A stretch of 53,607 bases of DNA from Zwartia hollandica (GTDB taxonomy: Bacteria; Pseudomonadota; Gammaproteobacteria; Burkholderiales; Burkholderiaceae_B). Location: NCBI RefSeq assembly GCF_019923725.1, contig NZ_JAHXRI010000007.1, positions 498,634-552,240 of the forward strand, read 5' to 3'. A program made the translations under genes and the position numbers. Under the pieces are notes generated by a model. It saw nothing but the letters and a program-made list of their open reading frames with translations, was not told where the DNA came from and made no database searches. Positions 68 to 14,302 of this stretch are shown here, in pieces; position 1 is the first letter of the stretch; every line of letters begins with the position of its first letter.

Positions 68-3000
68 TTGAGCCGAGCAGTCGCAATTCTTAGTCAGGCG
101 TTTCGCTTTCCGCAAACAGATACGCGCACCTTCGCGCAAGACCTGCTGGCGGGTAAAGACTTAGTCACACAGGTGGCCGCAGACCGCTGGGTGCATGCGC
201 GCTATTTCCATACAGACAAAACACAACCGGGAACCTCTTATACGTTTCAAGCGGGTTCCTTGGGTGACATCAGCAGATTTGATGCGAGCTTTTTTGAGAT
301 ATCGCCCAGAGAAGCGGCGCAAATGGATCCCCAACAGCGGCTCTTACTAGAACTAAGCTGGGAAGCCTTTGAAAATGCCGGCATCACCCCCTCGCAGATG
401 CGTGGCAAAGCCTGTGGTGTCTATATAGGCATTTCAAGCGCAGATTATTCTTATCGTCTCGCCGAAGACTTAAGTGCAGTAGACAGCACGGTCGCGACCG
501 GCAATACCGCAAGCATTGCAGCGAACCGTTTGTCTTACTTTTTTGACTTACATGGCCCCAGCATGGCCTTGGACACGGCCTGCTCTTCCGCAATGGTGGC
601 GTTTCATCAAGCTTGCCAAGCAATACGCGCCGGAGAAATCACACACGCCTTGACAGGCGGGGTCAGCCTACACGCGCACCCCTATGGCTTTATTAGTTTT
701 TCTAAAGCGTCGATGCTCTCTCGAGCAGGTCGATGCAATGTGTTTGACGCGCAGGGCGACGGTTACGTGCGCTCGGAAGGTGGCGGAATCTTTTTACTAA
801 AAGACTACGAGCTGGCATTGCAGGATGGCGACGACATCCTAGCCGTCGTTGCTCATAGCGCTGTGAACACTGACGGTAAAAAGTCAGGCCTGACCGTACC
901 AAGTGCGGACGCACAGGCGCAGCTGCTCGCCCAAGCCTACCGCGATGCCAAGATACATCCGGACCAAATTAGCTATATCGAGGCCCACGGCACCGGCACA
1001 GCGGTCGGAGACCCGATTGAGACGCGCGCCTTAGGCCAGGCTGTCGGCCAAGCGCGCACTGCGCAACAACCTTTACCAATTGGTTCGGTAAAGAGCAATA
1101 TCGGGCACTTGGAAGCGGCCTCCGGCGTTGCGGGTCTTGCAAAGGCCTTGCAAGTGGTCACGACGCGCATCATCCCACCCACGATCGGGATCACGACACT
1201 TAATCCAAATATCGATTTCAACGGCTTGAACCTCGATGTGGTTCAAGAACCGCGCACCCTGCCCGACAACGCGCCGATTATCGTCGGGATTAACTCGTTT
1301 GGGTTTGGGGGTGCAAACGCGCACGTGATCTTGCGTGAACCCGATAAACAACCCGAGACATCCGCTGCGCCAGTAGCACCCAATGCACTGCGCTTACCTT
1401 TCTTACTGTCGGCTGCCACGCCCGACGCTTTGCGTGAAACAGCTGCGTCTCTACTCGCGCGCAACAACAACGCAGCGCAGCGATACAGCCTGGCGCACCA
1501 TCTTTATCACGCACGCGAACACTTAGAGTATCGCGCCGTGTTTTATTGCGATGCCGGTTCGGCAGACGACGGTAGCCAAGCGAATGGTCTGCGTGAGCAG
1601 CTCAGCATTCTTGCCGCGGGTGGGGAACACCCGGCAGCCTGTGTATCTAGTGTTGTTCCAAGAGCGAAGGGGCCTGTCTTTGTTTTCTCGGGCAATGGCT
1701 CGCAGTGGTTGGGTATGGGCTGCGCGTTACTCGAGCATCCGGTTTTTGCCAGTGCTCTGCAAGAGATTGACGCATTATTTGAACCGCTAGCAGGGCTGCG
1801 CATACAAGATGAGCTTAAGGCGGCGCGCACAGACGACTCCAGCGCTGAGCACCGCTATGCTCATACCAATGTTGCTCAACCTGCCCTATTTGCGGTGCAA
1901 GTCGGTGTCGTGAAAGTGTTGGCAAGCCTTGGCGTCTATCCACAGGCTGTGATGGGCCATAGCGTTGGTGAAGTTGCAGCGGCCTGGGCTGGCGGGCACC
2001 TTGATCTTGCGACAGCGGTACACGTGATCTTTCACCGCAGCCGACTACAAGAAACTACAAAAGGTCAGGGGCAGATGACTGCGGTCGCTCTAGATTGCGA
2101 CGCCACGCAGGCTCTCTTGCTCGAACACGGCCTGCAAGATCACGTGCACATCGCGGGCGACAACAGCCGCAAGGGCGTCACACTCGCCGGACACGCCACC
2201 GCGTTAGAGCAAGTGGAAGCCGTCTTAACATCCCGCAGAATCGGTTTCCGAAGACTTGAGCTTGATTATGCGTTTCACAGCCCTGCGATGGATCCCATCC
2301 AAGAGCAACTCTTTGAGGCGCTGCGCGACATCACGGACCGGTCGAATACCCAATCGACCCTGCCTTTTTATTCCGGCGTCTCTGGCCGCCATATCGATGG
2401 GCGAGACTCGAGCCTCAAGCTTGAGGCTGACTACTGGTGGAACAACATTCGCCAGCCGGTGCTGTTTCGCTCAGCTGCCGAAGCAGCGCTCAAAGACGGC
2501 TTTAATATTTTTCTTGAAATCGGACCGCATCCGATTTTGCAAAACTACCTAAAAGATGCACTAGGAACGCAACCAGGGTTGATCAGCGCCACCCTCTCAC
2601 GCCAACGCGCGGATGCGGATAGCGTCTTGCGCGCAGCGTCCCAATGCATCGTCGCGGGTGGGCACGTCGACTGGAGTGCGCACTTTGCACACAAACCTGC
2701 GTACTCCGTGCGCGCCCTCGATCTACCCAACTACCCTTGGCAAAAAGAACGCCATTGGTACACCACAAGCGCAGAGACAGCCAATACGCTTATGCAGCCA
2801 CGCGTGCATCCTCTGCTTGGGTATCGCATCGACAACCATGATTGGATCTGGGAGCAAAAGCTCGACCCAACTGTCTGTACATACTTAAAGGATCATGCCA
2901 TCGGTGGCGGGGTGGTCTTGCCTGGCGCAGCTTTTGCGGAGATCGCGTTAGCAGCGGCCAAGCAGTGGCAAAAGGATGCCACAAACTTGCGTCTGAATGA

Positions 3001-6000
3001 CCTCGATATTTTGGCGCCGATTCTATTTGGCTCGGACCGAGTGGGTGAGCGCTTTCAAACGCGCGTACTACGCACACAACTCGATGCGAGTGACGGTACG
3101 GTGCGGATTTCTTCGCGCGCACTGCTAAGCACTGAGCCTTGGACACTGAACGCCATGTGTCGTGTTGTGACACAAGCGCGCATGTCGGTCGCCTCAGACA
3201 GCACTGCTGCCGTGTCATTACCGTCTTTACTTCCTGACTTTAACGCCGACACGCAGGCGGCGCTTACTAAACGCGTAGGCTTGAACTACGGACCGAACTT
3301 CGCGCTAATCGCGCAAGGCTGGTCGATCGGCGATGATCGCACCCCGCAAGTGCTTGCGCGCTTTGCGCTGGATGACAAGCCGACGCTCGATCTTGCCAAC
3401 CACCTTGTACATCCTGCGGTGTTAGATTGCAGCTTTCAGCTGATCATTCAGCTACTTCGTGAGCACACCGATTTCAGCGAAGGGATTGCCTTTGTACCCA
3501 CACAAATTGGTACGCTGCACTTCGATACCCAAGCGGGTCAGCCTCACAGCGCGCGCGCAACACTCATCCGCCATCTGCCACATTCGCTCGTGGTGGATTT
3601 CAGTCTATTTGATGCTGCCGGTCGTTTGGTGTGTGAAGTATCGAACGCACGCTTCAAACGTATCCGCCTACAACAAGATTCAAAGCGCCCGATTGAGCGC
3701 CTGTTAGAAACGCTTACCCCCGCGCCGAAGTACCCAGCGTTCACGCCCTCGCGCGTTGACTTTACCTTGCTCGCGAAGGCTGCCACGCAATTTGAACTGC
3801 GCTTGAAGCAAGATCCCGCCCAACGGGTGTTTGCACAAGAACTGGATCCCTTATTGGATACCCTCTGCGCACGTTTGGCGTTTGAGTTTCTGCATGACCC
3901 GACTAGGGCGAGCGAGCGGCAGGCTTGTTCGGACGAGTATCTTGATATGTTGACCGGACTGGCAGAAGAGAATATTGAACACGCCGGGGCGAGCGCGAAC
4001 GACATCTGGAATACGCTCGTGCGCGATTACCCAGATTTCTCGCAAACAATCCGCTACGTTGGACAGCTTGGCCAAGCGCTGGCCACAGTCAAGGCACTCC
4101 CCCAGGCGCACTTCGCAAGCGAATGGCTAGGTAACACGGGTCTCAGTCAATTTGTGAGGCTTGTGTCACAACAAGTGACTACCGCACAGGCACAATTACG
4201 GGCGCAAGATCGGCTCAGCCTTTTAGTCTGCGCCGCAGAAGATGCACGACTGGCATCACACCTGAGCATTAACGTAGACACCACAGCACTCGATATCGTA
4301 ATTGGGTCGACGGTGTTTTCAAACGCGTCTTTAAGCGCAGAGCCTGCGGGTGGCATCTCTGCTGATCTGGTCATTTTTTGGGCAGACTATTCCACGCAGG
4401 GCGAACAAGACGAAGCGCTGCAGCAGGCGCTGCGCAGCATGAAACCTGGCGCGACCCTGTTGCTCCTGGGACAGCACCCCAGCCAGTGGATGCGCTTTGC
4501 CTTTGGCCAGTTTGATCTGCAACCGCGCAGCCGAAGCCGCTGGATGGCGACCTTGGCGAGCCTGGGCTTAGAGGAAATCACCCCCTCTGCGCACTCTGAT
4601 GATTTATTAGCGGGTCCCTTCGTACTAGTCGGCAGAAAACCGGCTCTCGCGAATACGGAACGCAATCGTCCCCCGCGCATGACAGCGCAGGCTGACACTC
4701 CCCAAAGCTGGCTCATCCTTGCGCATGAGGAACCCGCGCAGACGAAGCTGGCGGACAAATGGACGCGCTTACTGCAAGAGCAAGGCGATATCGGGTCAGT
4801 GCTGGTCTTACCGCCCTCTGCCGAGAGCGGTTTTGATCCTGCTACCGTTACTTCAATCGAAAACGCACTCACTCACTCGCAAACGCAATTTGGCACCTTA
4901 GACAAAATCGTTTACTTGGGTGGTGTTTGCCTTGCAGCGGACGTATCCACCATTACCGAAAGGTGTCTGACCCTCGTCGCGGCTTTAAAGGCCTGTGAGT
5001 CGCAAGCGATCGAGACACCCGTTTGGTGTCTAACGACAAGCGCGAATGATCGAACCAAGGCGGTCAGCGGCGCTGCTGCGCTACAAGGCTTTGCGCGCAG
5101 TGTGCTGAACGAAGCCGCCGCGGGACGTCTGCGCCTGCTTGACGCAGTGCTGTCTGAGCCCGCAAATTTGTTCCTCCAAGAGACGCTTGTGCAGGCGTTA
5201 GTTCAAGAATGTACGGATCCGTCACTGGACGAAGAAGTCGTCCTGACCGAGACCGGTGGGCGTTATGTTTCGCGCACTCAGGTCGAGACAGACACGCGTA
5301 AGCAAAACACCCTGAACCACCCAGAGCTTTACTGCGCACTGGAATTCGCACAGCCTGGGCAACTGCGAAACCTACGTTGGGTTGCAGCCGAGCGACCAGC
5401 CTTGCAGTCAGACGCGATTGAGGTCGCCGTCGACGCCACGGGTTTGAACTTTAGAGATGTGATGTACACCCTCGGGCTGTTGTCAGACGAAGCCATTGAG
5501 CAAGGCTTTGCTGGCCCAACCCTTGGGCTGGAGTTTGCAGGGCGCGTGGCGCGCGTGGGTGAAGCTGTGACCCACCTCAGTGTCGGCGATCGGGTGGTCG
5601 GCTTTGGGCCGAGTTGCTTTGCCAACTATGTTGTCACCGCAGCCGCCGCAGCGACACGGATCCCACGTGCTTTATCCAATAAGTCGGCAGCAACGATCCC
5701 GAGCACGTTCCTGACAAGCTATTACGCGCTGCATCATCTGGCAAAGCTCTCAAAGGGCGAGCGCGTGCTGATTCATGGTGCAGCAGGTGGCGTGGGCTTG
5801 GCCGCGATACAGATTGCGCGCTGGTGCGGCGCCGAAGTGTTTGCCACCGCAGGCTCAGAAGAAAAGCGTAACTATCTACGTATGCTTGGCGTGCCGCACG
5901 TACTGGATTCCAGGACACTGGACTATGCCGACGACATCATGCGCCTGACGGATGGGGCAGGCGTAGACGTGGTGCTGAACTCCTTGTCTGGCGAGGCCAT

Positions 6001-7624
6001 CACACGCAACTTAAGCGTCCTTAAGCCGTTTGGTCGCTTTTTAGAATTAGGCAAACGGGATTTTTACGAGAACACCCGTATCGGCTTGCGCCCTTTCCGT
6101 CAGAATATCTCCTACTTCGGCATTGACGCAGACCAACTGCTCAAACATCGCCCCGCCTTGACGCAGCAGCTCTTTAGCGAAGTGATGGATCTCTTTGAAG
6201 ACGGCACGCTCTCGGCCTTGCCTTACACGCGCTTCGAAGCGCATGAGATCGTCGACGCCTTCCGCTTCATGCAGCAATCCAAGCAAATCGGCAAAGTCGT
6301 CGTGACCTACGGCATGGGCATTGAATGTCAGAACACCCCGCCCAAGCCTAAGTCTCTGACGCTATCCGCCGACGGCACGTACGTCGTCACAGGTGGCATG
6401 CGCGGCTTCGGTCTGCGCACAGCGCGCTGGTTAGTAGAAAAAGGTGCGCGACAGCTGTTGCTGCTTGGGCGAAGCGGTGTCGCCCCCGATGATGTCGAAG
6501 CACGCGATACGATACAAGCCATGCGCGATGCCGGTGCTTGCGTCGAACTCGTACAGTGTGATGTCACGAATCGAACACAACTCGAGACAGCCCTCGGTGA
6601 TCGCGACCTGAGAGGTGTCATCCACGCAGCGGCGGTTATCGAGGATAGTCTCGCCTTTAACCTGACAGCCGAGACACTGCATAAAGTGCTCGCCCCTAAG
6701 ATCCTCGGCGCGCAGCACCTGCACGACTTGTCGTCTAAGTGGAAGCTAGACTTCTTTGTGCTGTATTCCTCGGCAACGACATTTTTTGGAAACCCCGGGC
6801 AGGCAGCGTATGTTGCAGCCAACCGTTGGCTCGAGGCCCTCGCAGAGACGCGTGCCCAAGCGGGCCAGCCAGTCACGTGCATGCGTTGGGGTGCGATTGA
6901 GGATGCTGGTTTCTTGGCGCGCAACTCGCAAATTAAGCAAGCCTTATCACAGCGCATGGGCGGTGCGGCCTTACCCGCTGAGCTTGCACTGCAGTATCTT
7001 GAGCAGGCCATTGTCGCCGGCATACCCAACCTAGGTGTACTCGAACTTGAGTGGGGTGCGCTGCGCAAGTTTTTACCAAACGCCACCTCGCCGCGCTTCG
7101 CAGCGCTTGCGGAACGCGCGGGCGAAGCTGCGCATCAAGGCGATCAAGCAACAGATATCGCTGCCTTGGTGCGCGACTTAGACGACGAAGCCTTGACGAC
7201 AAAATTTGCCGCCATGATTCAGGCCGAGTTGGGTCAGATACTCAGGCTCGATCCAGAAAAAATTCCTGTCACTAAATCGGTCTACGAATTAGGTCTCGAT
7301 TCCTTGATGGGGGTAGAGCTCATCACAGCGCTCGAGGCACGCTTTGGGGTGCGCCTACCTGTCATGGCGATTAGTGAGGATGCAACGATTGAGCGTTTGG
7401 CGGTTCGGCTCATCGGTCTGCTGCGCAAAGATCAACAGACCGATGCAACCGTACAGGCAATCGAAGACATCGCGGCCCAACACGTCGCAGACGTAAGCCC
7501 CGAAGAGATTGAAGCATTTGCTCAGTCCTTGGACAGAACAAATGGCCGCTCGTCGGAGCAAGCGCAGACGCAGGCTGATACAGCAGCTGACAAGCAAGAC
7601 GGTCAGCGGAGTCTGTTGTCATGA
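68..7624 (+). CDS. wcbR: Type I reducing polyketide/fatty acid synthase of capsule locus (WcbR/RkpA type)
   Basis: This is a 2518-residue iterative-type synthase. Domains in order: ketosynthase (about 1-425; Cys172 in DTACSSA, His307 in EAHGTGT, His347), acyltransferase (about 534-850; Ser632 in GHSVGE, followed by AFHS, which favours malonyl), dehydratase (about 913-1200; His943, Asp1120), a C-methyltransferase-like stretch without a SAM motif, a structural ketoreductase half (about 1560-1740), enoylreductase (about 1756-2080; GAAGGVGLAA), ketoreductase (about 2100-2290; Tyr2248) and ACP (Ser2412 in GLDSLMG). There is no thioesterase. The full reducing set predicts a saturated acyl chain left on the ACP. 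Length and order match RkpA of Sinorhizobium and WcbR of Burkholderia pseudomallei capsule loci. The start is TTG, with AGGA eight bases upstream and an in-frame stop at 29-31. It overlaps the next gene by ATGA. Confidence 0.9.
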   Translation: MSRAVAILSQAFRFPQTDTRTFAQDLLAGKDLVTQVAADRWVHARYFHTDKTQPGTSYTFQAGSLGDISRFDASFFEISPREAAQMDPQQRLLLELSWEAFENAGITPSQMRGKACGVYIGISSADYSYRLAEDLSAVDSTVATGNTASIAANRLSYFFDLHGPSMALDTACSSAMVAFHQACQAIRAGEITHALTGGVSLHAHPYGFISFSKASMLSRAGRCNVFDAQGDGYVRSEGGGIFLLKDYELALQDGDDILAVVAHSAVNTDGKKSGLTVPSADAQAQLLAQAYRDAKIHPDQISYIEAHGTGTAVGDPIETRALGQAVGQARTAQQPLPIGSVKSNIGHLEAASGVAGLAKALQVVTTRIIPPTIGITTLNPNIDFNGLNLDVVQEPRTLPDNAPIIVGINSFGFGGANAHVILREPDKQPETSAAPVAPNALRLPFLLSAATPDALRETAASLLARNNNAAQRYSLAHHLYHAREHLEYRAVFYCDAGSADDGSQANGLREQLSILAAGGEHPAACVSSVVPRAKGPVFVFSGNGSQWLGMGCALLEHPVFASALQEIDALFEPLAGLRIQDELKAARTDDSSAEHRYAHTNVAQPALFAVQVGVVKVLASLGVYPQAVMGHSVGEVAAAWAGGHLDLATAVHVIFHRSRLQETTKGQGQMTAVALDCDATQALLLEHGLQDHVHIAGDNSRKGVTLAGHATALEQVEAVLTSRRIGFRRLELDYAFHSPAMDPIQEQLFEALRDITDRSNTQSTLPFYSGVSGRHIDGRDSSLKLEADYWWNNIRQPVLFRSAAEAALKDGFNIFLEIGPHPILQNYLKDALGTQPGLISATLSRQRADADSVLRAASQCIVAGGHVDWSAHFAHKPAYSVRALDLPNYPWQKERHWYTTSAETANTLMQPRVHPLLGYRIDNHDWIWEQKLDPTVCTYLKDHAIGGGVVLPGAAFAEIALAAAKQWQKDATNLRLNDLDILAPILFGSDRVGERFQTRVLRTQLDASDGTVRISSRALLSTEPWTLNAMCRVVTQARMSVASDSTAAVSLPSLLPDFNADTQAALTKRVGLNYGPNFALIAQGWSIGDDRTPQVLARFALDDKPTLDLANHLVHPAVLDCSFQLIIQLLREHTDFSEGIAFVPTQIGTLHFDTQAGQPHSARATLIRHLPHSLVVDFSLFDAAGRLVCEVSNARFKRIRLQQDSKRPIERLLETLTPAPKYPAFTPSRVDFTLLAKAATQFELRLKQDPAQRVFAQELDPLLDTLCARLAFEFLHDPTRASERQACSDEYLDMLTGLAEENIEHAGASANDIWNTLVRDYPDFSQTIRYVGQLGQALATVKALPQAHFASEWLGNTGLSQFVRLVSQQVTTAQAQLRAQDRLSLLVCAAEDARLASHLSINVDTTALDIVIGSTVFSNASLSAEPAGGISADLVIFWADYSTQGEQDEALQQALRSMKPGATLLLLGQHPSQWMRFAFGQFDLQPRSRSRWMATLASLGLEEITPSAHSDDLLAGPFVLVGRKPALANTERNRPPRMTAQADTPQSWLILAHEEPAQTKLADKWTRLLQEQGDIGSVLVLPPSAESGFDPATVTSIENALTHSQTQFGTLDKIVYLGGVCLAADVSTITERCLTLVAALKACESQAIETPVWCLTTSANDRTKAVSGAAALQGFARSVLNEAAAGRLRLLDAVLSEPANLFLQETLVQALVQECTDPSLDEEVVLTETGGRYVSRTQVETDTRKQNTLNHPELYCALEFAQPGQLRNLRWVAAERPALQSDAIEVAVDATGLNFRDVMYTLGLLSDEAIEQGFAGPTLGLEFAGRVARVGEAVTHLSVGDRVVGFGPSCFANYVVTAAAAATRIPRALSNKSAATIPSTFLTSYYALHHLAKLSKGERVLIHGAAGGVGLAAIQIARWCGAEVFATAGSEEKRNYLRMLGVPHVLDSRTLDYADDIMRLTDGAGVDVVLNSLSGEAITRNLSVLKPFGRFLELGKRDFYENTRIGLRPFRQNISYFGIDADQLLKHRPALTQQLFSEVMDLFEDGTLSALPYTRFEAHEIVDAFRFMQQSKQIGKVVVTYGMGIECQNTPPKPKSLTLSADGTYVVTGGMRGFGLRTARWLVEKGARQLLLLGRSGVAPDDVEARDTIQAMRDAGACVELVQCDVTNRTQLETALGDRDLRGVIHAAAVIEDSLAFNLTAETLHKVLAPKILGAQHLHDLSSKWKLDFFVLYSSATTFFGNPGQAAYVAANRWLEALAETRAQAGQPVTCMRWGAIEDAGFLARNSQIKQALSQRMGGAALPAELALQYLEQAIVAGIPNLGVLELEWGALRKFLPNATSPRFAALAERAGEAAHQGDQATDIAALVRDLDDEALTTKFAAMIQAELGQILRLDPEKIPVTKSVYELGLDSLMGVELITALEARFGVRLPVMAISEDATIERLAVRLIGLLRKDQQTDATVQAIEDIAAQHVADVSPEEIEAFAQSLDRTNGRSSEQAQTQADTAADKQDGQRSLLS

Positions 7625-9027
7625 CTTTTAAGCTTCCTTCGTTGCCCTCCTTGCCGGGCTTAACTGGGCAAATTAAAGACAAGTTGATTCAACAAACCTT
7701 GGAGCGGCGTCTCGCCAAGGCGGGAGAACCGTTAGAGAGACCCGCCCAAAGTGGTGACGACGCGGATGCCAATCGGTCAGGCAGTCAGGCTCAAACAAAT
7801 CCCGACACACCAGAAACAGACCCGTCGTGCCGCTTTGACTTGTTCCCTGGCTATAAACAAATCCAGATTCTGCATGGCGGCGCCCAACGACTTGGGCTGG
7901 CCAACCCGTTTTTTAAACTGCACGAAGGCCTTGCGGGCGCGCGCTGCACAATCGACGGGCGTGAGCGCATCAATTTCGCGAGCTATAACTACCTGGATTT
8001 CTCGGGCGATCCGCGCGTCAAACAAGCCGCAGTCGAAGCGATCGACCACTACGGAGTATCCGTGTCGGCGAGTCGCGTCGTGTCTGGCGATCGCCCTGTG
8101 CACCATGCACTAGAAGAGGCCATTGCAAACCTGTACGGCACACCTGCGGCCGTCGTGTTTGTCAGCGGCCACGCGACCAATGTGTCGACCATTGGTCACT
8201 TGTTTGGCCCGCGCGATCTCATTGTGCATGATGAGTACATTCACAATAGTGCCTTACAAGGCATACAACTATCCGGCGCCAAGCGACTATCGTTTCCGCA
8301 CAACGACTGGAACGCTTTAGATGCCTTGCTAGCCAAGCAGCGCGCGCAGTATGAGCGCACACTCATCGTCGTTGAAGGCCTCTACAGCATGGACGGTGAT
8401 TTCCCAGACCTGCCACGCTTTATTGAAGTCAAAAGACGGCATCGTGCGCTACTGATGGTCGATGAAGCACACTCGCTAGGCGTCCTGGGCCAAACCGGGC
8501 GCGGCATACGGGAGCACTTTGCCCTAGACGCCAAAGAGGTCGATATCTGGATGGGCACCTTAAGCAAATCGCTCGCAGGTTGCGGGGGCTATATCACCGG
8601 CGAGCGTGCGCTGGTAGAACAACTCAAGTACCTGGCACCCGGCTTTCTGTATAGCGTGGGTATGTCACCGCCGCTTGCAGCGGCCTCGTTGGCGGCCTTG
8701 CAATGCATGTTAGAAGAACCTGAACGCGTGCAGGCACTGCAACACGCTGGTCAGTTGTTTCTGCAGCGCGCGCAGGCAGCGGGAATCCCGACCGGTACGA
8801 GTGTGGGCCTCGCGATTGTCCCGGCAATCGTAGGGAGTTCAATTCAAGCGACACGGCTGTCCGCCAAACTGTTTGAGCAAGGCATTAACGTGCAACCGAT
8901 CCTGTACCCAGCCGTGCCAGAGAAAGCGGCGCGACTACGCTTCTTTATATCGTGCAAGCACACTCCCCAAGACATTGAATACACTGTCAGTATCCTAGCA
9001 AAAGAATTTCAACAAGCCGTTCGTTAG
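7621..9027 (+). CDS. wcbT: PLP-dependent alpha-oxoamine synthase, capsule locus (WcbT/RkpG type)
   Basis: This 468-residue protein belongs to the family of 8-amino-7-oxononanoate synthase, serine palmitoyltransferase and CqsA. These enzymes join an acyl thioester to an amino acid with loss of CO2. Visible signatures are NYLDFSGDP, the VDEAHSLG block (Asp281, His284) that contacts the PLP ring, and GTLSKSLAG with the Schiff-base Lys316. The N-terminus carries about 75 extra residues, with a basic amphipathic segment (IKDKLIQQTLERRLAK) and a low-complexity linker, that could dock to the synthase or membrane. It starts inside the stop codon of the polyketide synthase gene (ATGA), so the two are translationally coupled. 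Because the synthase lacks a thioesterase, I infer that this enzyme releases the chain as an amino ketone. RkpG/WcbT homologues sit in the same position in other capsule loci. The amino acid substrate cannot be read from sequence. Confidence 0.88.
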   Translation: MTFKLPSLPSLPGLTGQIKDKLIQQTLERRLAKAGEPLERPAQSGDDADANRSGSQAQTNPDTPETDPSCRFDLFPGYKQIQILHGGAQRLGLANPFFKLHEGLAGARCTIDGRERINFASYNYLDFSGDPRVKQAAVEAIDHYGVSVSASRVVSGDRPVHHALEEAIANLYGTPAAVVFVSGHATNVSTIGHLFGPRDLIVHDEYIHNSALQGIQLSGAKRLSFPHNDWNALDALLAKQRAQYERTLIVVEGLYSMDGDFPDLPRFIEVKRRHRALLMVDEAHSLGVLGQTGRGIREHFALDAKEVDIWMGTLSKSLAGCGGYITGERALVEQLKYLAPGFLYSVGMSPPLAAASLAALQCMLEEPERVQALQHAGQLFLQRAQAAGIPTGTSVGLAIVPAIVGSSIQATRLSAKLFEQGINVQPILYPAVPEKAARLRFFISCKHTPQDIEYTVSILAKEFQQAVR

Positions 9028-9033
9028 TTTTGT

Positions 9034-9534
9034 ATGTCAAACTGGTACGTCATCCACACCAAACCCCGTCAAGAAGCCCGCGCACTGGAAAATCTTCAGG
9101 CGCAGGGGTATCACTGCTATCTGCCCCTGATCGCTGTCGAGAAAATTCGTCAGCATCGCCTTTCGATTGAACAAGAACCACTCTTTGCACGCTATCTGTT
9201 CATCGAACTTGATTCTGATGCCAGCGGTAAAAGCTGGTCGCCTATTCGCTCAACGCTAGGCGTATCAAAACTTGTCTCGTTTGGAACTGAACCCTTAAAG
9301 GCTTCGCGTGAACTGATCGAAGCATTACGCCAACGGACAGAGACGGTTGCACAGACGCCGATCGCCCTACACCAGCCTGGCGATGCCGTCCGAATCACGG
9401 ATGGTCCTTTTACAGGACTTGAAGGGGTGTTTCAGATGACGAACGGTGAAGCCCGCGCCATGGTGCTGCTTGAACTGTTGAGCAAACCTACGCAAGTCAC
9501 CCTGCCGATCGCAAGCCTGACTAAAGCGCGTTAG
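9034..9534 (+). CDS. NusG/RfaH-family transcription elongation factor paralogue
   Basis: This 166-residue protein has an N-terminal NGN domain (NWYVIHTKPRQEARALENL at the start, YLFIELD about residue 50) and a C-terminal KOW segment around residue 110 (GDAVRITDGPFTGLEG). This is the layout of NusG and its specialised paralogue RfaH. RfaH-type factors travel with RNA polymerase and suppress premature termination in long polysaccharide operons. Its place six bases behind the oxoamine synthase gene supports a locus-specific antiterminator for the 9.5-kb operon. No ops-type sequence (GGCGGTAG) is visible in the 67 bases before the polyketide synthase, but most of that promoter lies outside the window. 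Its 3' end overlaps the convergent membrane phosphotransferase gene by 14 bp. It could also be a general NusG paralogue; the housekeeping nusG normally sits beside secE and ribosomal protein genes, which are absent here. Confidence 0.85.
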   Translation: MSNWYVIHTKPRQEARALENLQAQGYHCYLPLIAVEKIRQHRLSIEQEPLFARYLFIELDSDASGKSWSPIRSTLGVSKLVSFGTEPLKASRELIEALRQRTETVAQTPIALHQPGDAVRITDGPFTGLEGVFQMTNGEARAMVLLELLSKPTQVTLPIASLTKAR

Positions 9535-11077
9535 TAGCCTGCAACAACGACTGCCCCAGCATGTCGATAGAGGCCTCAGCGGGCGGGCAAGCCGCAGTGG
9601 CTAAACGGTCACTTCGCCAAACAAAGTAATCCGTGCATCCCGCGGGTGCGCCAAGCTTAGCGTAGGCCCCATCCATAATCGGTACATGGTCACCGTACCA
9701 GCACAACACACCTGGCCGTGTCTGATTCCTTGCTAAGGCTTCTGTCAGTCGCCCCACCATGGCATCCGCATTGGCCAAGTGCCTGAGGTAAACAGGAATA
9801 TCCGAGCAACCTGCGGGTAGCTCCGAGACTAACCATCGTTGGGCTTGCTCTGCAGACAAGTTCTCGAGATGCAGCGGCCCATGGTTTTCCATGGTGATCA
9901 CAAAGATAAAGAGCGGTCGGGTGTCACCTTCTCTCTCATGCTCTTGCAGTAAGTGCTCAATCTTTTGCGCAACCGCGAGATCCCCTACATAGGGATAGCC
10001 TGCCTCCGGCGGCTCAAACTCGCTGATGTCGATCAAGCGATCAAAGCCTAATAACGGAAACAACCGATCGCGATGATAAAACTTACCTGAATAGGGATGA
10101 ATCGCCACCGTCCGATAGCCGCGCTGTTGATACTGGCGCGCAAGACTCGGTGTTTGCGCAGACACCAAGCGACGGTAAGGGTTGAACCGATCGATGCCTA
10201 AGCGCTCCAGCGCGATACCCGTCAAAAACGAGAACTCCGTGCGAACGGTATTCGCCCCCCAAGCTGGCACAGCCATCACCCCGCACGCGACCGACTCTGC
10301 ACACGCACGATCAAAATGCGTCAAAACACTGGCATCGATTCCCGAACACCAACGTCGAATATCAAAAAACGATTCACTTTGTACAACGATGAGGTGTGGT
10401 GAAGTTAAATGCGGTGAAGTTAACTGCAGTTCCTCAGTCTCCCCCACCAACGATGAGATCCCTTCAAGCTTAGGTACCGCTTGCCGCTCCGCACGACAAT
10501 AAAGCCATAGCGCGGGCAGCAGGCCATAACGACGGATATCCTCTTCGGGTCGAAAGCTCAACGTGAAGACACTGCGCGAGCCTATCAACACCAACACCGC
10601 ACCAAGCACTGCGAAGGCTACACACAGTACAACCGCAGTCCAAACGCCCGACTGTTCGGTAACGGGCGCCTCAAGCCGCAACACGACGAGTAAACCAAAG
10701 ATCAACAACCCAATACAGACTAGCGTGCGCCCCCACCCAAAAAACGGAACGTAAAGCCGAGGAAAGCGGCAGGCATCCACCAAGTACTGCACATCTTGAT
10801 AGATGAAGGGCTCACGCAACGCTGCATATTTAGCGTGATTGATGATCACCAGCACACACTGGATAGTCGCTGTCAAAAAAGCACTGACCCACAGACGCTG
10901 AAACTGCATGAACTCGATCGCGAAGACGATCAACCATAGGCCGCAATGAATCAAGAGCGCGCCCATGGGGCGCCTCCAGCATTTCTCGGCTTGGGGCGTG
11001 ACAAAGTCATCAATCACAAAGGACGATAGCAGCCCAACACCAAGCACAAGCCCAATCGTCAGCGCACTATCAAGCAC
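9521..11077 (-). CDS. wcbQ: LtaS/OpgB-like membrane phosphotransferase of capsule locus (WcbQ/RkpI position)
   Basis: This 518-residue protein begins with four or five hydrophobic membrane segments (residues about 1-190) followed by a large soluble alkaline-phosphatase-superfamily domain. Metal and nucleophile motifs of the LtaS/OpgB sulfatase fold are visible: VVQSESFFD (Glu), GANTVRTEF (Thr277 as likely nucleophile) and CWYGDHVP (Asp, His). Family members transfer phosphoglycerol or phosphoethanolamine from phospholipids to sugars or polymers outside the inner membrane, so a transfer to the capsule or its lipid is plausible but inferred. It starts with GTG inside the stop of the reductase gene (8-nt overlap) and is the last gene of the leftward operon. 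In gene order it corresponds to WcbQ/RkpI, proteins known only as capsule-required membrane proteins. Residues HLTSPHLTSP come from a 15-bp tandem duplication. Confidence 0.8.
   Translation of the reverse strand: MLDSALTIGLVLGVGLLSSFVIDDFVTPQAEKCWRRPMGALLIHCGLWLIVFAIEFMQFQRLWVSAFLTATIQCVLVIINHAKYAALREPFIYQDVQYLVDACRFPRLYVPFFGWGRTLVCIGLLIFGLLVVLRLEAPVTEQSGVWTAVVLCVAFAVLGAVLVLIGSRSVFTLSFRPEEDIRRYGLLPALWLYCRAERQAVPKLEGISSLVGETEELQLTSPHLTSPHLIVVQSESFFDIRRWCSGIDASVLTHFDRACAESVACGVMAVPAWGANTVRTEFSFLTGIALERLGIDRFNPYRRLVSAQTPSLARQYQQRGYRTVAIHPYSGKFYHRDRLFPLLGFDRLIDISEFEPPEAGYPYVGDLAVAQKIEHLLQEHEREGDTRPLFIFVITMENHGPLHLENLSAEQAQRWLVSELPAGCSDIPVYLRHLANADAMVGRLTEALARNQTRPGVLCWYGDHVPIMDGAYAKLGAPAGCTDYFVWRSDRLATAACPPAEASIDMLGQSLLQATNAL
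10398..10427 (-). repeat. 15-bp tandem duplication inside the phosphotransferase gene
   Basis: Two adjacent 15-bp units differ by one base (GGTGAAGTTAAATGC, then the same with ACTGC at the end). They encode the pentapeptide HLTSP twice, in frame. The repeat lies just before the first metal-ligand motif of the soluble domain and probably lengthens a surface linker by five residues. It looks like replication slippage and leaves the reading frame intact. Confidence 0.85.
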
Positions 11078-11828
11078 GGTAGCCCATCCAGCGCAGCAGC
11101 CGAATCGACCAATCCATGGGCAAAACGCTCAGCAACCAGGTCCCGACGTTCAGTGGGAACGGAAAACGAATCGTCGCCTGATTGCGTGCTACGCCCTTTT
11201 GAATCACCGCCGCTGCCCGCTCGGCAGACCAAAGCCAAGGTTTGGGTCCTGGCATTGCCGCAGACATCTCCGATTCCACATAACCAGGCAACACGACCGA
11301 CACACCGACCCCTTCAGGCGCGAGCCAGCCACGCAAAGACTCGCCATAACTTTTAAGCGCGGCTTTACTCGCACAATACGCAGGAGTCGCGGGCAAACCG
11401 AAATAGGCTGCGAGCGAACTGATCAAGACGATTTGTCCTGCACGACGCGTACGCATGCCAGGTAATACGGCTTGTACCAGAGCGATGGCAGCGCGCAGAT
11501 TCACATTGAACAGGTGGTCCGTGTCTTCCCACGACTCACCCTTCCCGTCTGCCCCAATATTGATATTGATGCCTTGGTTGACGATCACGATGTCGAAGGC
11601 CAGCGTTTGCTCAAGCATGGACACCCATTGCTGGAGGGTTTCAATCTGCGTAATATCGAAAGCACCGACGACAACCTGCGCACCACGCGCCTCACACTGT
11701 TGGCGCAAGGACTCTAGGGCCGGAACCCGACGTCCCTGCAACACTAGTGTCACGTCCGGCGCCGCATACTGAAGCGCGAGTGCCTGCCCAATACTGCCCG
11801 ACGCTCCGGTAATTAAGATGTTACGCAT
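11070..11828 (-). CDS. wcbP: Short-chain dehydrogenase/reductase of capsule locus (WcbP/RkpH type)
   Basis: This 252-residue classical SDR has the cofactor motif TGASGSIGQ at residue 7 and the catalytic pair in YCASK, preceded by LISSLAAYFG. A hydrophobic C-terminal tail (FPFPLNVGTWLLSVLPM) may hold it at the membrane, as in 3-ketosphinganine reductases and other lipid-acting SDRs. RkpH and WcbP are the matching proteins in other capsule loci. Its obvious substrate in this context is the amino ketone from the oxoamine synthase, which it would reduce to an amino alcohol; this is inference. Both ends overlap neighbours by exactly 8 nt (ATGCGTAA with kpsS, GTGCTTGA with the phosphotransferase), so expression is tightly coupled. 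Confidence 0.85.
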   Translation of the reverse strand: MRNILITGASGSIGQALALQYAAPDVTLVLQGRRVPALESLRQQCEARGAQVVVGAFDITQIETLQQWVSMLEQTLAFDIVIVNQGININIGADGKGESWEDTDHLFNVNLRAAIALVQAVLPGMRTRRAGQIVLISSLAAYFGLPATPAYCASKAALKSYGESLRGWLAPEGVGVSVVLPGYVESEMSAAMPGPKPWLWSAERAAAVIQKGVARNQATIRFPFPLNVGTWLLSVLPMDWSIRLLRWMGYRA

Positions 11829-13113
11829 AGGATTTACTTATCCACACTTCAAGGGGTGAACGCTCTGCTTGCAGCACCTGCGCACTGCCCTGTACAGCCA
11901 AGGCTATGCCTTGCGCACAATAGAACCCACCGTTGACTTGCGTCGTGCTCAACACCACTGCTTTGAAAGAAGCAAACAACAAGGGATCAGGCGCCGGCAA
12001 ACTTGTCCAAAAGGCATCGAGCCCGCACTGCGCTGTTAGCCCTGGCAGCTGATATGTTGCATCGGCCAGGCATAGGGTCGGGCAGCCATGTTCAAGCGCC
12101 ACGCTACCCACGGTGCTATTGAGGGTGACGGTACCGCTCGCACAAGCCAGAATCTGATACAAATCGCCCGCTTCGCAATACTGCACACGGCCTGCGAGAT
12201 CATATTGTTGGATCAGGCGTGCCAGTAACGTTGGATAGCGGACCCGTCCATCATCCAGGGGATGATTCTTAACAAGCAAACAAGACGATGCCGGTGCGTG
12301 ACAGGCAAAAGAGGAGATTACGTGCTCAAGCACAGCGCTCATGCTGTTCAGTACGAGTTGATCGCGAACCTGGAAGTCACTATCAAGTTGCAAGGGCAAA
12401 AAATACAGTGCTCCACCCTTGCGAATACTCTCTAACCAGTGCGAGAAATCACGCTGTTGCGACGGCGTGTAGAGCCGCGTCTCGATCTGACGGCGAACAT
12501 AACCAACATATTCATCGGGCGCCCAGCTCAATGCATGCGTGCGGTAAGCGGGAAAGAGCAACGGGTTCAACGCGCTCGCAGTGTGATACAACACATCATG
12601 TCCCGCGCGACGCCAAAACGCAGACTTGAACGGCTGGGCCACGGGCAACGTGTCCTTGGCGTGAAGCAATTGCTCGCCAACACGACGATACCAGTCAGGG
12701 TCTTTAGGCAACTGCGAGCGTGCATTGACCCCTTCGCGCTCCAACGTAATCCAATAAGGCCGGAAATAGCCTTCCTCAAAGACATGATTACGCAAGGCAT
12801 TCTGGTGGGCCGCCTCAACGGCCCGTTGATGGACGGGCCTGCGATCCCCAAACAGCACTTGATCTGTAATGCCAAACTTGCGATAGATTTCAGCTAAGAA
12901 CGACGGCAACTCAGACAGCGCACCTCGGAACCAGCGGGACGTACGTGGCGCCCAATAGGCGAGGTCGCCACCGTTGAAACTTACCTTGTGCACCTGGTGG
13001 CCGTCTTGCTCAAGCTTGTATGCCAGATGCTTAAAAAATGGTGAGCTGACCCCCTGCAAGAATAGAAAGGATTTTTTCTCAGGCGCGCTTCTAGGGGCCG
13101 TGACCTTAACCAT
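11821..13113 (-). CDS. kpsS: KpsS-like capsule Kdo transferase/export protein (WcbO/RkpJ type)
   Basis: This 430-residue protein begins with FLFLQGVSSPFFKHLA and carries KVSFNGGD, both typical of the KpsS/LipB family. Later hallmarks are VKNHPLDDGR and the segment GTVTLNSTVGSVALEHG, which forms the nucleotide-sugar site. In E. coli, KpsS adds the first beta-Kdo to a phosphatidylglycerol acceptor to start the capsule linker; here the acceptor may be the locus-specific lipid. The frame is open for 39 more codons upstream, to 13230, but I place the start at the ATG at 13113. It overlaps the upstream stop codon by 8 nt (ATGGTTAA) exactly as at the next two junctions, whereas the longer version would overlap by 125 bp and begin with an unconserved Cys/Arg-rich tail. 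It is the second gene of the leftward operon. Confidence 0.85.
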   Translation of the reverse strand: MVKVTAPRSAPEKKSFLFLQGVSSPFFKHLAYKLEQDGHQVHKVSFNGGDLAYWAPRTSRWFRGALSELPSFLAEIYRKFGITDQVLFGDRRPVHQRAVEAAHQNALRNHVFEEGYFRPYWITLEREGVNARSQLPKDPDWYRRVGEQLLHAKDTLPVAQPFKSAFWRRAGHDVLYHTASALNPLLFPAYRTHALSWAPDEYVGYVRRQIETRLYTPSQQRDFSHWLESIRKGGALYFLPLQLDSDFQVRDQLVLNSMSAVLEHVISSFACHAPASSCLLVKNHPLDDGRVRYPTLLARLIQQYDLAGRVQYCEAGDLYQILACASGTVTLNSTVGSVALEHGCPTLCLADATYQLPGLTAQCGLDAFWTSLPAPDPLLFASFKAVVLSTTQVNGGFYCAQGIALAVQGSAQVLQAERSPLEVWISKSYA

Positions 13114-14302
13114 AGGACATAGGTCCGACAACGGGATGCGCGCCATCGCTTGCAGCGCGATAGGGGCGGTTTTCCTCTCGACCGTGGAGCGTGTAATGCA
13201 CGTCCGCCTCAGGCACTCCGCATTGCACATCGGGATTCAACGCAAGATATTGCACCGGATCAAAATCGCTCGGCACATCCACTTTATAAAGACGTTTCTC
13301 TGCACGACCATGCCATACATAATGGGCCTCGAGGTCAGCACGAGAACCTTTTACATCCGGATTCAGACGCAGATATTCCTCAGCCTTGAAATCGAGCGGC
13401 AAGCGCTGCGGTTCGACACTCGCGAGATACGGTTTAAATAAGGCCTTTTTTTTCCAGAAGTACAAGCCATCGCCACCGCGCTCTACCGCTCCGTAGGTGA
13501 TTTGCTCAATACCTTGGACCAAAGGGTCTGACCGTTCTAGCAGCCACTCAATTATGTGCAGATGCAGTTGCTTCATCACACCGTGAGGGACGTGTTCAGC
13601 ATGGCCAATGAAATCGCGGCAAGTCACCGTGTTGCCGATTCGGTAGAGTCGTGCGTAGCCAACCAGTTGCTGCTCAGTCTGTAACGCTCCCTGGCGATAT
13701 CCTGCTTTGGGCAAAAACACCCCAATTATTTTTTCCCAATGCTGGGTGCATTCTGGTGCGTCAATCCTTGCATAGTGTTGTGGCGGCCCACCCAGGTGTT
13801 CTAATCGCATCAAAAAAGCATCTAAGTACACACCAAAACTGCGTAACTTCGCCGAACGATGAATCGCCAGAATATCTGGGGAGTAGTTTGCCAGCTGAAC
13901 GTCCTGCACGCGATAACCTGCACGCTTAGAAAGCGCGGCATTCCGCAGGAAACTTCCAGACTTGCGGCGCATCTCCGTTTGATAGTCTGCGTAACGCGCA
14001 TAATGGATCAAGGGTATGGCGTGCAGTGTGGCAGAACTGCGAAACTTCAGTTTTGCGGCTTCAGGGCGTGTGCGATGGGTACTGCGCAATTTGCCATAGG
14101 CCAAGTCATAACGGCGTATGAGTGGCACACAGGCTGCGCATCCGCAGGCTCCGGTCTGGCCCAGACGAATCGACACAGAGGGTAAACGTTCAGATTCCTG
14201 TGCGACATCACTCCCCTCCCGACGTCGCCAACGCGGGGCGTAGTGCCAGGGTTCCCAATATCGAGTGAAGTTGGCGTATAAGAACGTCTTGAAGCGATCC
14301 AT
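13106..14302 (-). CDS. GNAT-like acyltransferase with two C-terminal NPDV/HG repeats
   Basis: This 398-residue protein is first in the leftward capsule operon. Residues about 90-290 resemble an acetyltransferase-like fold of the GNAT/FemAB kind (for example SFLRNAALSKRAGYRV and QLVGYARLYRIGN). The C-terminal 110 residues hold two copies of a repeat of about 40 residues: FKAEEYLRLNPDV then HYVWHGRAEKR, and FDPVQYLALNPDV then HYTLHGREENR. The same YL..NPDV..HY..HG pattern is known from tandem tails of bacterial glycosyltransferases and surface-glycan proteins, so it may tether the enzyme to the glycan machinery. An N-terminal cluster CGCAAC could bind a metal. Fold assignment is moderate; function is unknown, possibly acylation of a capsule sugar or lipid amine. 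The reading frame covers an ATG start at 14302, with a 56-bp gap before the chromate transporter gene. Confidence 0.6.
   Translation of the reverse strand: MDRFKTFLYANFTRYWEPWHYAPRWRRREGSDVAQESERLPSVSIRLGQTGACGCAACVPLIRRYDLAYGKLRSTHRTRPEAAKLKFRSSATLHAIPLIHYARYADYQTEMRRKSGSFLRNAALSKRAGYRVQDVQLANYSPDILAIHRSAKLRSFGVYLDAFLMRLEHLGGPPQHYARIDAPECTQHWEKIIGVFLPKAGYRQGALQTEQQLVGYARLYRIGNTVTCRDFIGHAEHVPHGVMKQLHLHIIEWLLERSDPLVQGIEQITYGAVERGGDGLYFWKKKALFKPYLASVEPQRLPLDFKAEEYLRLNPDVKGSRADLEAHYVWHGRAEKRLYKVDVPSDFDPVQYLALNPDVQCGVPEADVHYTLHGREENRPYRAASDGAHPVVGPMSYG

Follow-up and report, generated by a model that had tools for sequence, protein, structure and literature searches.

Polyketide synthase and oxoamine synthase genes in a capsule locus of Zwartia hollandica: a predicted sphingolipid route and a candidate capsule anchor

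On which lipid does a capsule begin when its locus holds lipid genes of its own? The question is raised by a capsule locus of Zwartia hollandica, in which genes for a polyketide synthase (PKS), an α-oxoamine synthase and a short-chain dehydrogenase/reductase (SDR) stand near the gene of a KpsS-like transferase of Kdo (3-deoxy-D-manno-oct-2-ulosonic acid). The stretch analyzed, called the window hereafter, comprises 53,607 nucleotides (C23:498634-552240) of a genome of 3.22 Mb. A preliminary description of the window, with gene coordinates that are right as judged by open reading frames (ORFs) and Pfam, had proposed a sphingoid-type route to the lipid of the capsule. We lean slightly toward a locus whose product, a sphingolipid (a kind of lipid more familiar from animals and fungi), serves to initiate capsule synthesis. 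Within this reading, the formation of a sphingoid base by the PKS, the oxoamine synthase and the SDR is very probable.

A predicted path from acyl chain to sphinganine

The iterative, fully reducing type I PKS (68..7624, + strand; RkpA/WcbR/SgaA-like) has 2518 residues with the Pfam domains KS-AT-DH-ER-KR-ACP. As in the preliminary description, the reducing set is complete and Pfam finds no thioesterase domain in the protein; about 110 residues remain after the motif of the acyl carrier protein (ACP). Eight examined catalytic residues are conserved in all 68 aligned rows, the window included, and a pattern match assigns the AT motif to the malonyl type in the window as well as in 64 of 68 relatives. 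Judged by its domains, the PKS would make an acyl chain that is long, saturated and carried by the enzyme's own ACP, and we infer that this chain is made for the oxoamine synthase (7621..9027, + strand; RkpG/SgaB-like by its gene overlap, catalytic residues and matches in the Protein Data Bank, PDB). The start codon of the latter lies inside the PKS stop codon (tcATGActt), the ATGA coupling noted before. The best 80 of 106 relatives of the oxoamine synthase were compared, with gene counts limited to the available flanks, many of them short. The pairing exceeds chance, as a PKS match occurs in the flank of 79 of these 80. With both ORFs resolved (74 loci), the two genes overlap in 26, lie 0–60 nucleotides (nt) apart in 44 and further apart in four, so that 70 of 74 pairs overlap or are at most 60 nt apart; the three largest overlaps resemble artefacts of start choice.

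The oxoamine synthase is predicted to release the chain by decarboxylative condensation of the PKS acyl-ACP with L-serine into 3-ketosphinganine. Residues Lys316, His208, Asp281 and His284 are invariant in 25 rows, and 25 columns, the catalytic ones included, are common to the rows of the rkpG type, serine palmitoyltransferase (SPT), amino-ketobutyrate ligase (KBL), BioF and 5-aminolevulinate synthase (ALAS). The top two PDB matches are serine palmitoyltransferases. In a tree of 58 rows, the enzyme belongs to a clade of 29 rows that includes RkpG of Sinorhizobium meliloti (support 100/100) and is separate from the SPT clade; a split with support 99/93 groups this clade with SPT and separates it from BioF, KBL and ALAS, in a tree that is unrooted and has several long branches. 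No NCBIfam equivalog cut-off is reached (344.2 bits with a cut-off of 426.45 for BioF, TIGR00858). On the scores, the PDB matches and the tree, the identities BioF, ALAS and KBL were set aside. The enzyme thus shares with canonical bacterial SPT the superfamily, the catalytic columns and the closest solved structures; it differs in having its own clade, scores under the cut-offs, an N-terminal extension and a PKS directly before it.

The synthase might use glycine or alanine in place of serine, giving 1-amino-alcohols or 1-deoxysphingoids and not sphinganine. The columns that its clade shares with one group alone are more numerous for ALAS (eight) or BioF (five) than for SPT (four), and the clade is about equally distant from SPT, KBL, BioF and ALAS. 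On the other hand, position 151 is Ser in 25/25 rkpG-type rows and in 12/12 SPT rows, but Val in 9/9 KBL and Thr in 2/2 ALAS rows. Since Ser occurs also in 3/3 BioF rows, this position cannot separate serine from alanine and would argue only against glycine. The chemistry of the related enzyme SgaB, which uses L-serine almost exclusively (PMC12134224), makes the use of glycine or alanine very improbable.

One member of the clade (L092:6476-9817, + strand) is a natural fusion of an AMP-binding ligase, an ACP and an rkpG-type oxoamine synthase; an NAD-epimerase-type gene lies upstream of it. The fusion fits acyl-ACP as the substrate of the oxoamine synthase, and a PKS-free sphingolipid route is possible there. 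Canonical SPT of α-, β- and γ-Proteobacteria is likewise reported to be accompanied by an ACP and a ligase (PMC9386255). At the N-terminus, the rkpG-type synthases (7621-7760, + strand, in the window) have a common helix-like stretch with the consensus KDKLIQQALERRL, followed by a variable linker. The stretch precedes the region that aligns with solved relatives and is perhaps an ACP dock or a membrane contact. In Caballeronia insecticola, a gene for an LpxC-like deacetylase (PF03331; L102:24071-24997, + strand) stands between the PKS and the oxoamine synthase.

The third gene of the route encodes an SDR by Pfam (11070..11828, − strand; SgaC-like), predicted to be a 3-ketosphinganine reductase that would yield sphinganine, the reaction proposed for SgaC. 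It had been called membrane-tailed; a Kyte–Doolittle scan (19 residues, 1.6) finds no transmembrane segment in it, so that the term holds at most for a peripheral tail.

The chemistry of such a set has been described, in the parts of the article considered here, for Pseudomonas fluorescens MYb115, in which SgaA and SgaB produce sphinganines of C24–C28 (Peters et al. 2025, PMC12134224). The SDR SgaC, a homologue of the reductase KDSR, is proposed there as the ketosphinganine reductase, and lipids heavier by 154 Da are, from exact mass, "most likely phosphoglycerol sphingolipids" (PMC12134224). The sphingoid route proposed for the window draws support from this SgaAB chemistry. As in the SgaAB(C) cluster, an iterative PKS, an oxoamine synthase and a KDSR-like SDR occur in the window, with a single-module, fully reducing PKS lacking a thioesterase and an oxoamine synthase directly after it. 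That cluster is described as one for secondary metabolites, whereas we take the window locus to belong to a Kps capsule system.

The published sga primers were searched in 25 genomes of the genus taken for Pseudomonas. In one of them, the start and end primer sites of sgaA fall at the start and stop of a PKS gene, with two mismatches each, and the oxoamine synthase directly after this PKS is 61.6% identical over 463 residues to that of the window. The facing genes of this near-sga locus also resemble those of the window (phosphoglycerol-transferase-like protein 41%, SDR 54%, KpsS 45% and KpsC 50% identity), and a KpsF/KdsD-type isomerase and a KdsB-KdsC fusion are present as well. The sga-type genes of this relative belong to a Kdo capsule locus. 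Because the sgaB-end primer does not match in that genome, the locus is taken as a close relative of sga and not as the same locus. In 15 named Pseudomonas loci, the published primers have no close match (five to nine mismatches at best), and in most of them the sgaA-end site falls at the PKS stop. The neighbors of sga in MYb115 would be the same as in the near-sga locus, with which the locus tags RS19805, RS19800 and RS19775 fit. Orthology of the window synthase to SgaB is thus judged by proxy, through the near-sga synthase and not the MYb115 sequence, and the KDSR-like nature of the SDR likewise, through its 54% identity to the near-sga SDR.

A phosphoglycerol-transferase-like protein that follows the lipid genes

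The gene downstream from the SDR (9521..11077, − strand), which the preliminary description had left without a part in the lipid route, has a Pfam sulfatase match and the position of RkpI/WcbQ. Its product has about five N-terminal hydrophobic segments, by hydropathy, and a sulfatase-fold domain. Among solved relatives, a PDB search ranks GacH first (4e-11), then LtaP and LtaS. Thr277, Glu235, Asp463 and His464 are invariant in 22/22 relatives, and the threonine aligns with that of GacH; we take Thr277 to be catalytic and the three other residues to be the expected metal ligands. The PDB matches and the invariant residues led us to drop the identity of a plain sulfatase for one of the LtaS/GacH type. 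Identity within the family is 37–43%, and plasmid-borne relatives carry the annotation "LTA synthase family protein". The aligned threonine, the invariant Glu, Asp and His and the N-terminal hydrophobic segments are common with LtaS, LtaP and GacH; the sequence kinship is only distant, and the predicted acceptor is a sphingoid base, versus a glycan or teichoic acid.

We consider it likely that this protein puts phosphoglycerol on sphinganine. With phosphatidylglycerol as the presumed donor, it would transfer glycerol phosphate to the 1-hydroxyl of sphinganine, and the product would be a single-chain lipid ending in phosphoglycerol. Such a step would account for the P. fluorescens lipids read as phosphoglycerol sphingolipids, the head-group enzyme of which is not named in the sections considered of PMC12134224.

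Which genes does this protein accompany? In the flanks of the 80 relatives, KpsS is found in 39, the transferase-like protein in 36, the SDR in 35 and KpsC in 31. The SDR and transferase genes, where both are present (34 loci), overlap in 28, are separated by 1 nt in five and by 106 nt in one; kpsS and the SDR gene overlap by 4 nt in 19 of the 28 loci that hold both. A survey of 229 genomes of the class (oxoamine synthase at E ≤ 1e-140, transferase at E ≤ 1e-50, SDR at E ≤ 1e-70, PF05159 at E ≤ 1e-15) finds the oxoamine synthase in seven, the transferase in five (535 bits or more in four, a partial match of 210 bits in one), the SDR in six and PF05159 in 13. The four genomes with a strong transferase are those with the four best oxoamine synthases, and all have the SDR and a KpsS-like protein. 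Strong KpsS and KpsC are present in four other genomes, which contain, at the limits used, neither oxoamine synthase nor transferase nor SDR. The match of oxoamine synthase and transferase among the seven KpsS-strong genomes, the window's own excluded, has a chance of 1 in 35, and the fall of all three transferase genomes other than the window's own within the six oxoamine synthase genomes of 228 a chance of 1e-5. The association is with the lipid genes: transferase and SDR are tied to the oxoamine synthase and not to KpsS and KpsC alone. In the genome G158, the genes are split between contigs, with transferase, SDR and KpsS on one and oxoamine synthase and KpsC on another.

A different role for the protein has to be weighed here. 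KpsS might put Kdo directly on the sphinganine 1-hydroxyl, with the transferase-like protein decorating the polymer with glycerol phosphate or releasing it. The nearest solved relative, GacH, decorates a cell-wall polysaccharide, as this would have it. The SDR is absent from the flank in 45 of the 80 loci and the transferase in 44; in 20 such genomes searched whole, the SDR occurs elsewhere in 20/20 (E ≤ 3e-80) and the transferase in 15/20, so that five hold oxoamine synthase and SDR without it. Yet the transferase tracks the oxoamine synthase and the SDR and not the Kps genes alone, its gene overlaps that of the SDR in most loci with both, and the P. fluorescens lipids are read as carrying phosphoglycerol on the sphingoid (PMC12134224). 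Direct glycosylation of sphinganine is therefore improbable, and transfer of phosphoglycerol to sphinganine is preferred.

Replacement of the transferase by another SDR-adjacent gene in the five genomes that lack it was considered and rejected, as a similar-looking gene (by eye) occurs also in G158, which has the transferase. In three transferase-less genomes, an SDR-adjacent gene of about 360–390 residues with the motif NPSTDYY is found (L138:4507-5592, L139:4826-5908 and L141:4952-6115, all + strand).

The capsule setting and the acceptor of the first Kdo

The capsule locus in which the window sits is of the ABC-transporter type and includes dedicated lipid genes; it is assigned to this type because KpsC, KpsS, an ABC ATPase and permease and an export protein occur together. 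On the facing strand (−), the genes for a 398-residue protein, the KpsS-like protein, the SDR and the sulfatase-fold protein follow one another, and each overlaps the next. The KpsS-like β-Kdo transferase (11821..13230, − strand; RkpJ/WcbO) matches PF05159 with 218.7 bits. It matches NF050054 with 254.8 bits from residue 52, and is called KpsS-like because the equivalog cut-off of 600 is not reached; the true start of the gene is probably about 50 codons downstream from the called start. A second PF05159 protein, KpsC-like with 667 residues and four matched stretches as in KpsC, is encoded at C23:442325-444328, about 56 kb from the window start. Directly before the window occur genes for an export protein, an ABC ATPase, an ABC-2 permease (25.6, just under the Pfam cut-off of 26.9), a 301-residue protein without Pfam match, which from its place we take to be KpsE-like, and a GT2 glycosyltransferase. 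KdsB is present in a single copy in the genome, away from the locus. The capsule setting of the preliminary description is thereby borne out, also by the frequent co-occurrence of the set with Kps Kdo transferases: where 20 kb or more of flank is available (53 loci), a Kps-type gene is present in 38, and PF05159 is found elsewhere in the genome for 13 of the 15 others.

In E. coli, KpsS acts on (lyso-)phosphatidylglycerol, according to the parts considered of PMC7694667. The E. coli group 2 system likewise combines KpsC- and KpsS-like proteins with an ABC exporter and an export protein in a single locus; the window differs from it in having extra dedicated lipid genes and a predicted acceptor that is a sphingoid phosphoglycerol lipid. 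The KpsS-like protein is predicted to add the first Kdo to a lipid acceptor. Sphinganine-phosphoglycerol would resemble lyso-phosphatidylglycerol, with one chain and a terminal glycerol phosphate, and could mimic it. By analogy with the E. coli pathway, KpsS would add the first Kdo to the glycerol, KpsC would extend the linker, and the polymer would be built on this Kdo linker and then exported by the ABC exporter. We judge it somewhat likely that the sphingoid phosphoglycerol lipid is the capsule acceptor for KpsS. The former proposal of a capsule on an amino-alcohol lipid and "not on phosphatidylglycerol" is plausible but probably too sharp. A sphingoid lipid bearing phosphoglycerol is the likelier anchor, because a phosphoglycerol-transferase-like gene belongs to the locus itself and the lipids of P. 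fluorescens are interpreted as phosphoglycerol sphingolipids.

Among the closest described capsule genes are those of rkp-1. In S. meliloti Ak57 (a record labelled pSymB), a PKS, an oxoamine synthase 52% identical to that of the window, an SDR, a sulfatase-fold gene and a KpsS-like gene are present. Counterparts of RkpA, G, H, I and J all occur in the window, with the same five activities; RkpH corresponds by activity and not by subfamily. RkpI is 30% identical over its domain and retains the threonine (GGYTLRTEF). The genes wcbR, wcbT, wcbP, wcbQ and wcbO of Burkholderia presumably provide the same five activities, gene by gene. In the record of Ak57, rkpI (L101:17180-18855, + strand) is unannotated, with its N- and C-terminal parts in different frames. 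RkpH (L101:16355-17158, + strand) has a best SDR model different from that of the window SDR, and a PPDTETP stretch that resembles the PPDTDTPG motif of eukaryotic ketosphinganine reductases.

Does the lipid serve the capsule at all? The sphingolipid might be free, in the outer membrane or in host interaction, and merely travel with the capsule locus, with KpsS using lyso-phosphatidylglycerol as in E. coli. Peters et al., in the parts considered, treat their lipids as secondary metabolites acting on the host (PMC12134224), and in the main text of that article the strings "capsul", "polysaccharide" and "kdo" have zero occurrences. The poly-Kdo of S. meliloti 1021 is given as "harboring a phospholipid anchor" in the title of Fraysse (2005), although a sphingoid phosphoglycerol contains phosphate and could have been called a phospholipid anchor. 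Members of the oxoamine synthase clade occur, moreover, in genomes without PF05159. To the contrary, a description of rkp-1 (PMC4881576) credits its products with the synthesis and modification of a specific lipid carrier used in polysaccharide secretion, a lipid product not further defined in the passages considered; rkpA is listed, in the part considered, among genes affecting the capsular polysaccharide of S. meliloti (PMC5539429); and titles from the 1990s link the fatty-acid-synthase-like rkp genes with the capsule. The frequent 4-nt overlap of kpsS with the SDR gene points the same way. A free sphingolipid is thus rather unlikely, and a sphingoid phosphoglycerol lipid as the capsule acceptor is preferred.

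Several points nevertheless weigh against this acceptor. For the first steps, the oxoamine synthase stays below the NCBIfam cut-offs for SPT (266.1 of 500 bits with NF047599 and 283.0 of 640 bits with NF047600), and the column comparison by itself would not indicate serine. The lipid products were measured in P. fluorescens, and the route in Z. hollandica is proposed from genes alone. The sgaB-end primer, as its best site in the near-sga genome, has one elsewhere in that genome with 7 of 21 positions mismatched. In MYb115, induction of the sphinganines left the phosphoglycerol form unraised, in the data considered of PMC12134224. The anchor title of Fraysse and the five genomes lacking the transferase count here too. 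The absences from the survey are soft, because the whole-genome searches give scores just to those candidates that rank best at a first look. Two genomes with the oxoamine synthase (L017 and L036) have no PF05159 at E ≤ 1e-15; in G004, oxoamine synthase and SDR occur beside GT2 and GNAT without PF05159; and in G092 and G197, also without PF05159, members of the clade stand in other settings (a ligase fusion, and a PKS with an MMPL transporter), so that the module is not only for capsule. Finally, LtaS-type domains are extracytoplasmic. The transferase domain should be periplasmic and KpsS and KpsC should work at the cytoplasmic face, so that the lipid would have to flip back.

At L090:7662-11904 (− strand), genes for GT2, oxoamine synthase, GNAT and SDR are consecutive, without capsule Kdo transferases, and the row looks like a glyco-sphingoid lipid route. 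At L093:1615-11415 (+ strand), a PKS without ER, an oxoamine synthase and an MMPL-type transporter follow one another; that genome has no PF05159 at E ≤ 1e-15.

Among the neighboring genes, an RfaH-type antiterminator (9034..9534, + strand; TIGR01955, 167.4 bits, cut-off 144.5) is a probable regulator of the capsule operons. The first gene of the facing operon (13106..14302, − strand) encodes the 398-residue protein, which has no match in Pfam, NCBIfam or PADLOC, nor (E ≤ 1e-5) in the loci of the 80 oxoamine synthase relatives. Adjoining the capsule export genes, two proteins of 589 and 873 residues (C23:487887-492274, L008) have, by eye, repetitive coiled-coil-like stretches.

A proposed sphingolipid for the capsule

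The sphinganine route has been known since 2025 and the idea of a lipid carrier since the 1990s. New are the union of the two, the assignment of the transferase and the anchor model. In the open-licence literature, we found no paper linking this lipid route with capsule, and none defining the lipid of the rkp genes. Two literatures meet here: the PKS sphingolipid cluster reported in 2025 appears to be the same set of genes as the rkp/wcb capsule module. The analysis offers a candidate for the head-group enzyme that had been missing and would give the phosphoglycerol sphingolipids a function in the cell. Sphingolipids would also be expected in many capsulated Proteobacteria with an oxoamine synthase other than canonical SPT. 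Whether many Gram-negative capsules are anchored on a PKS-made, very-long-chain sphingoid phosphoglycerol lipid seems to us evenly balanced; the proposed class would comprise the rhizobial K antigens, the wcb-type capsules and related ones in Pseudomonas, Bordetella, Achromobacter, Halomonas, Accumulibacter and some Desulfobacterota. If this is true, the lipid would be a mimic of lyso-phosphatidylglycerol set aside for the capsule, and the PKS sphingolipids reported to act on an animal host would be precursors of capsule anchors.

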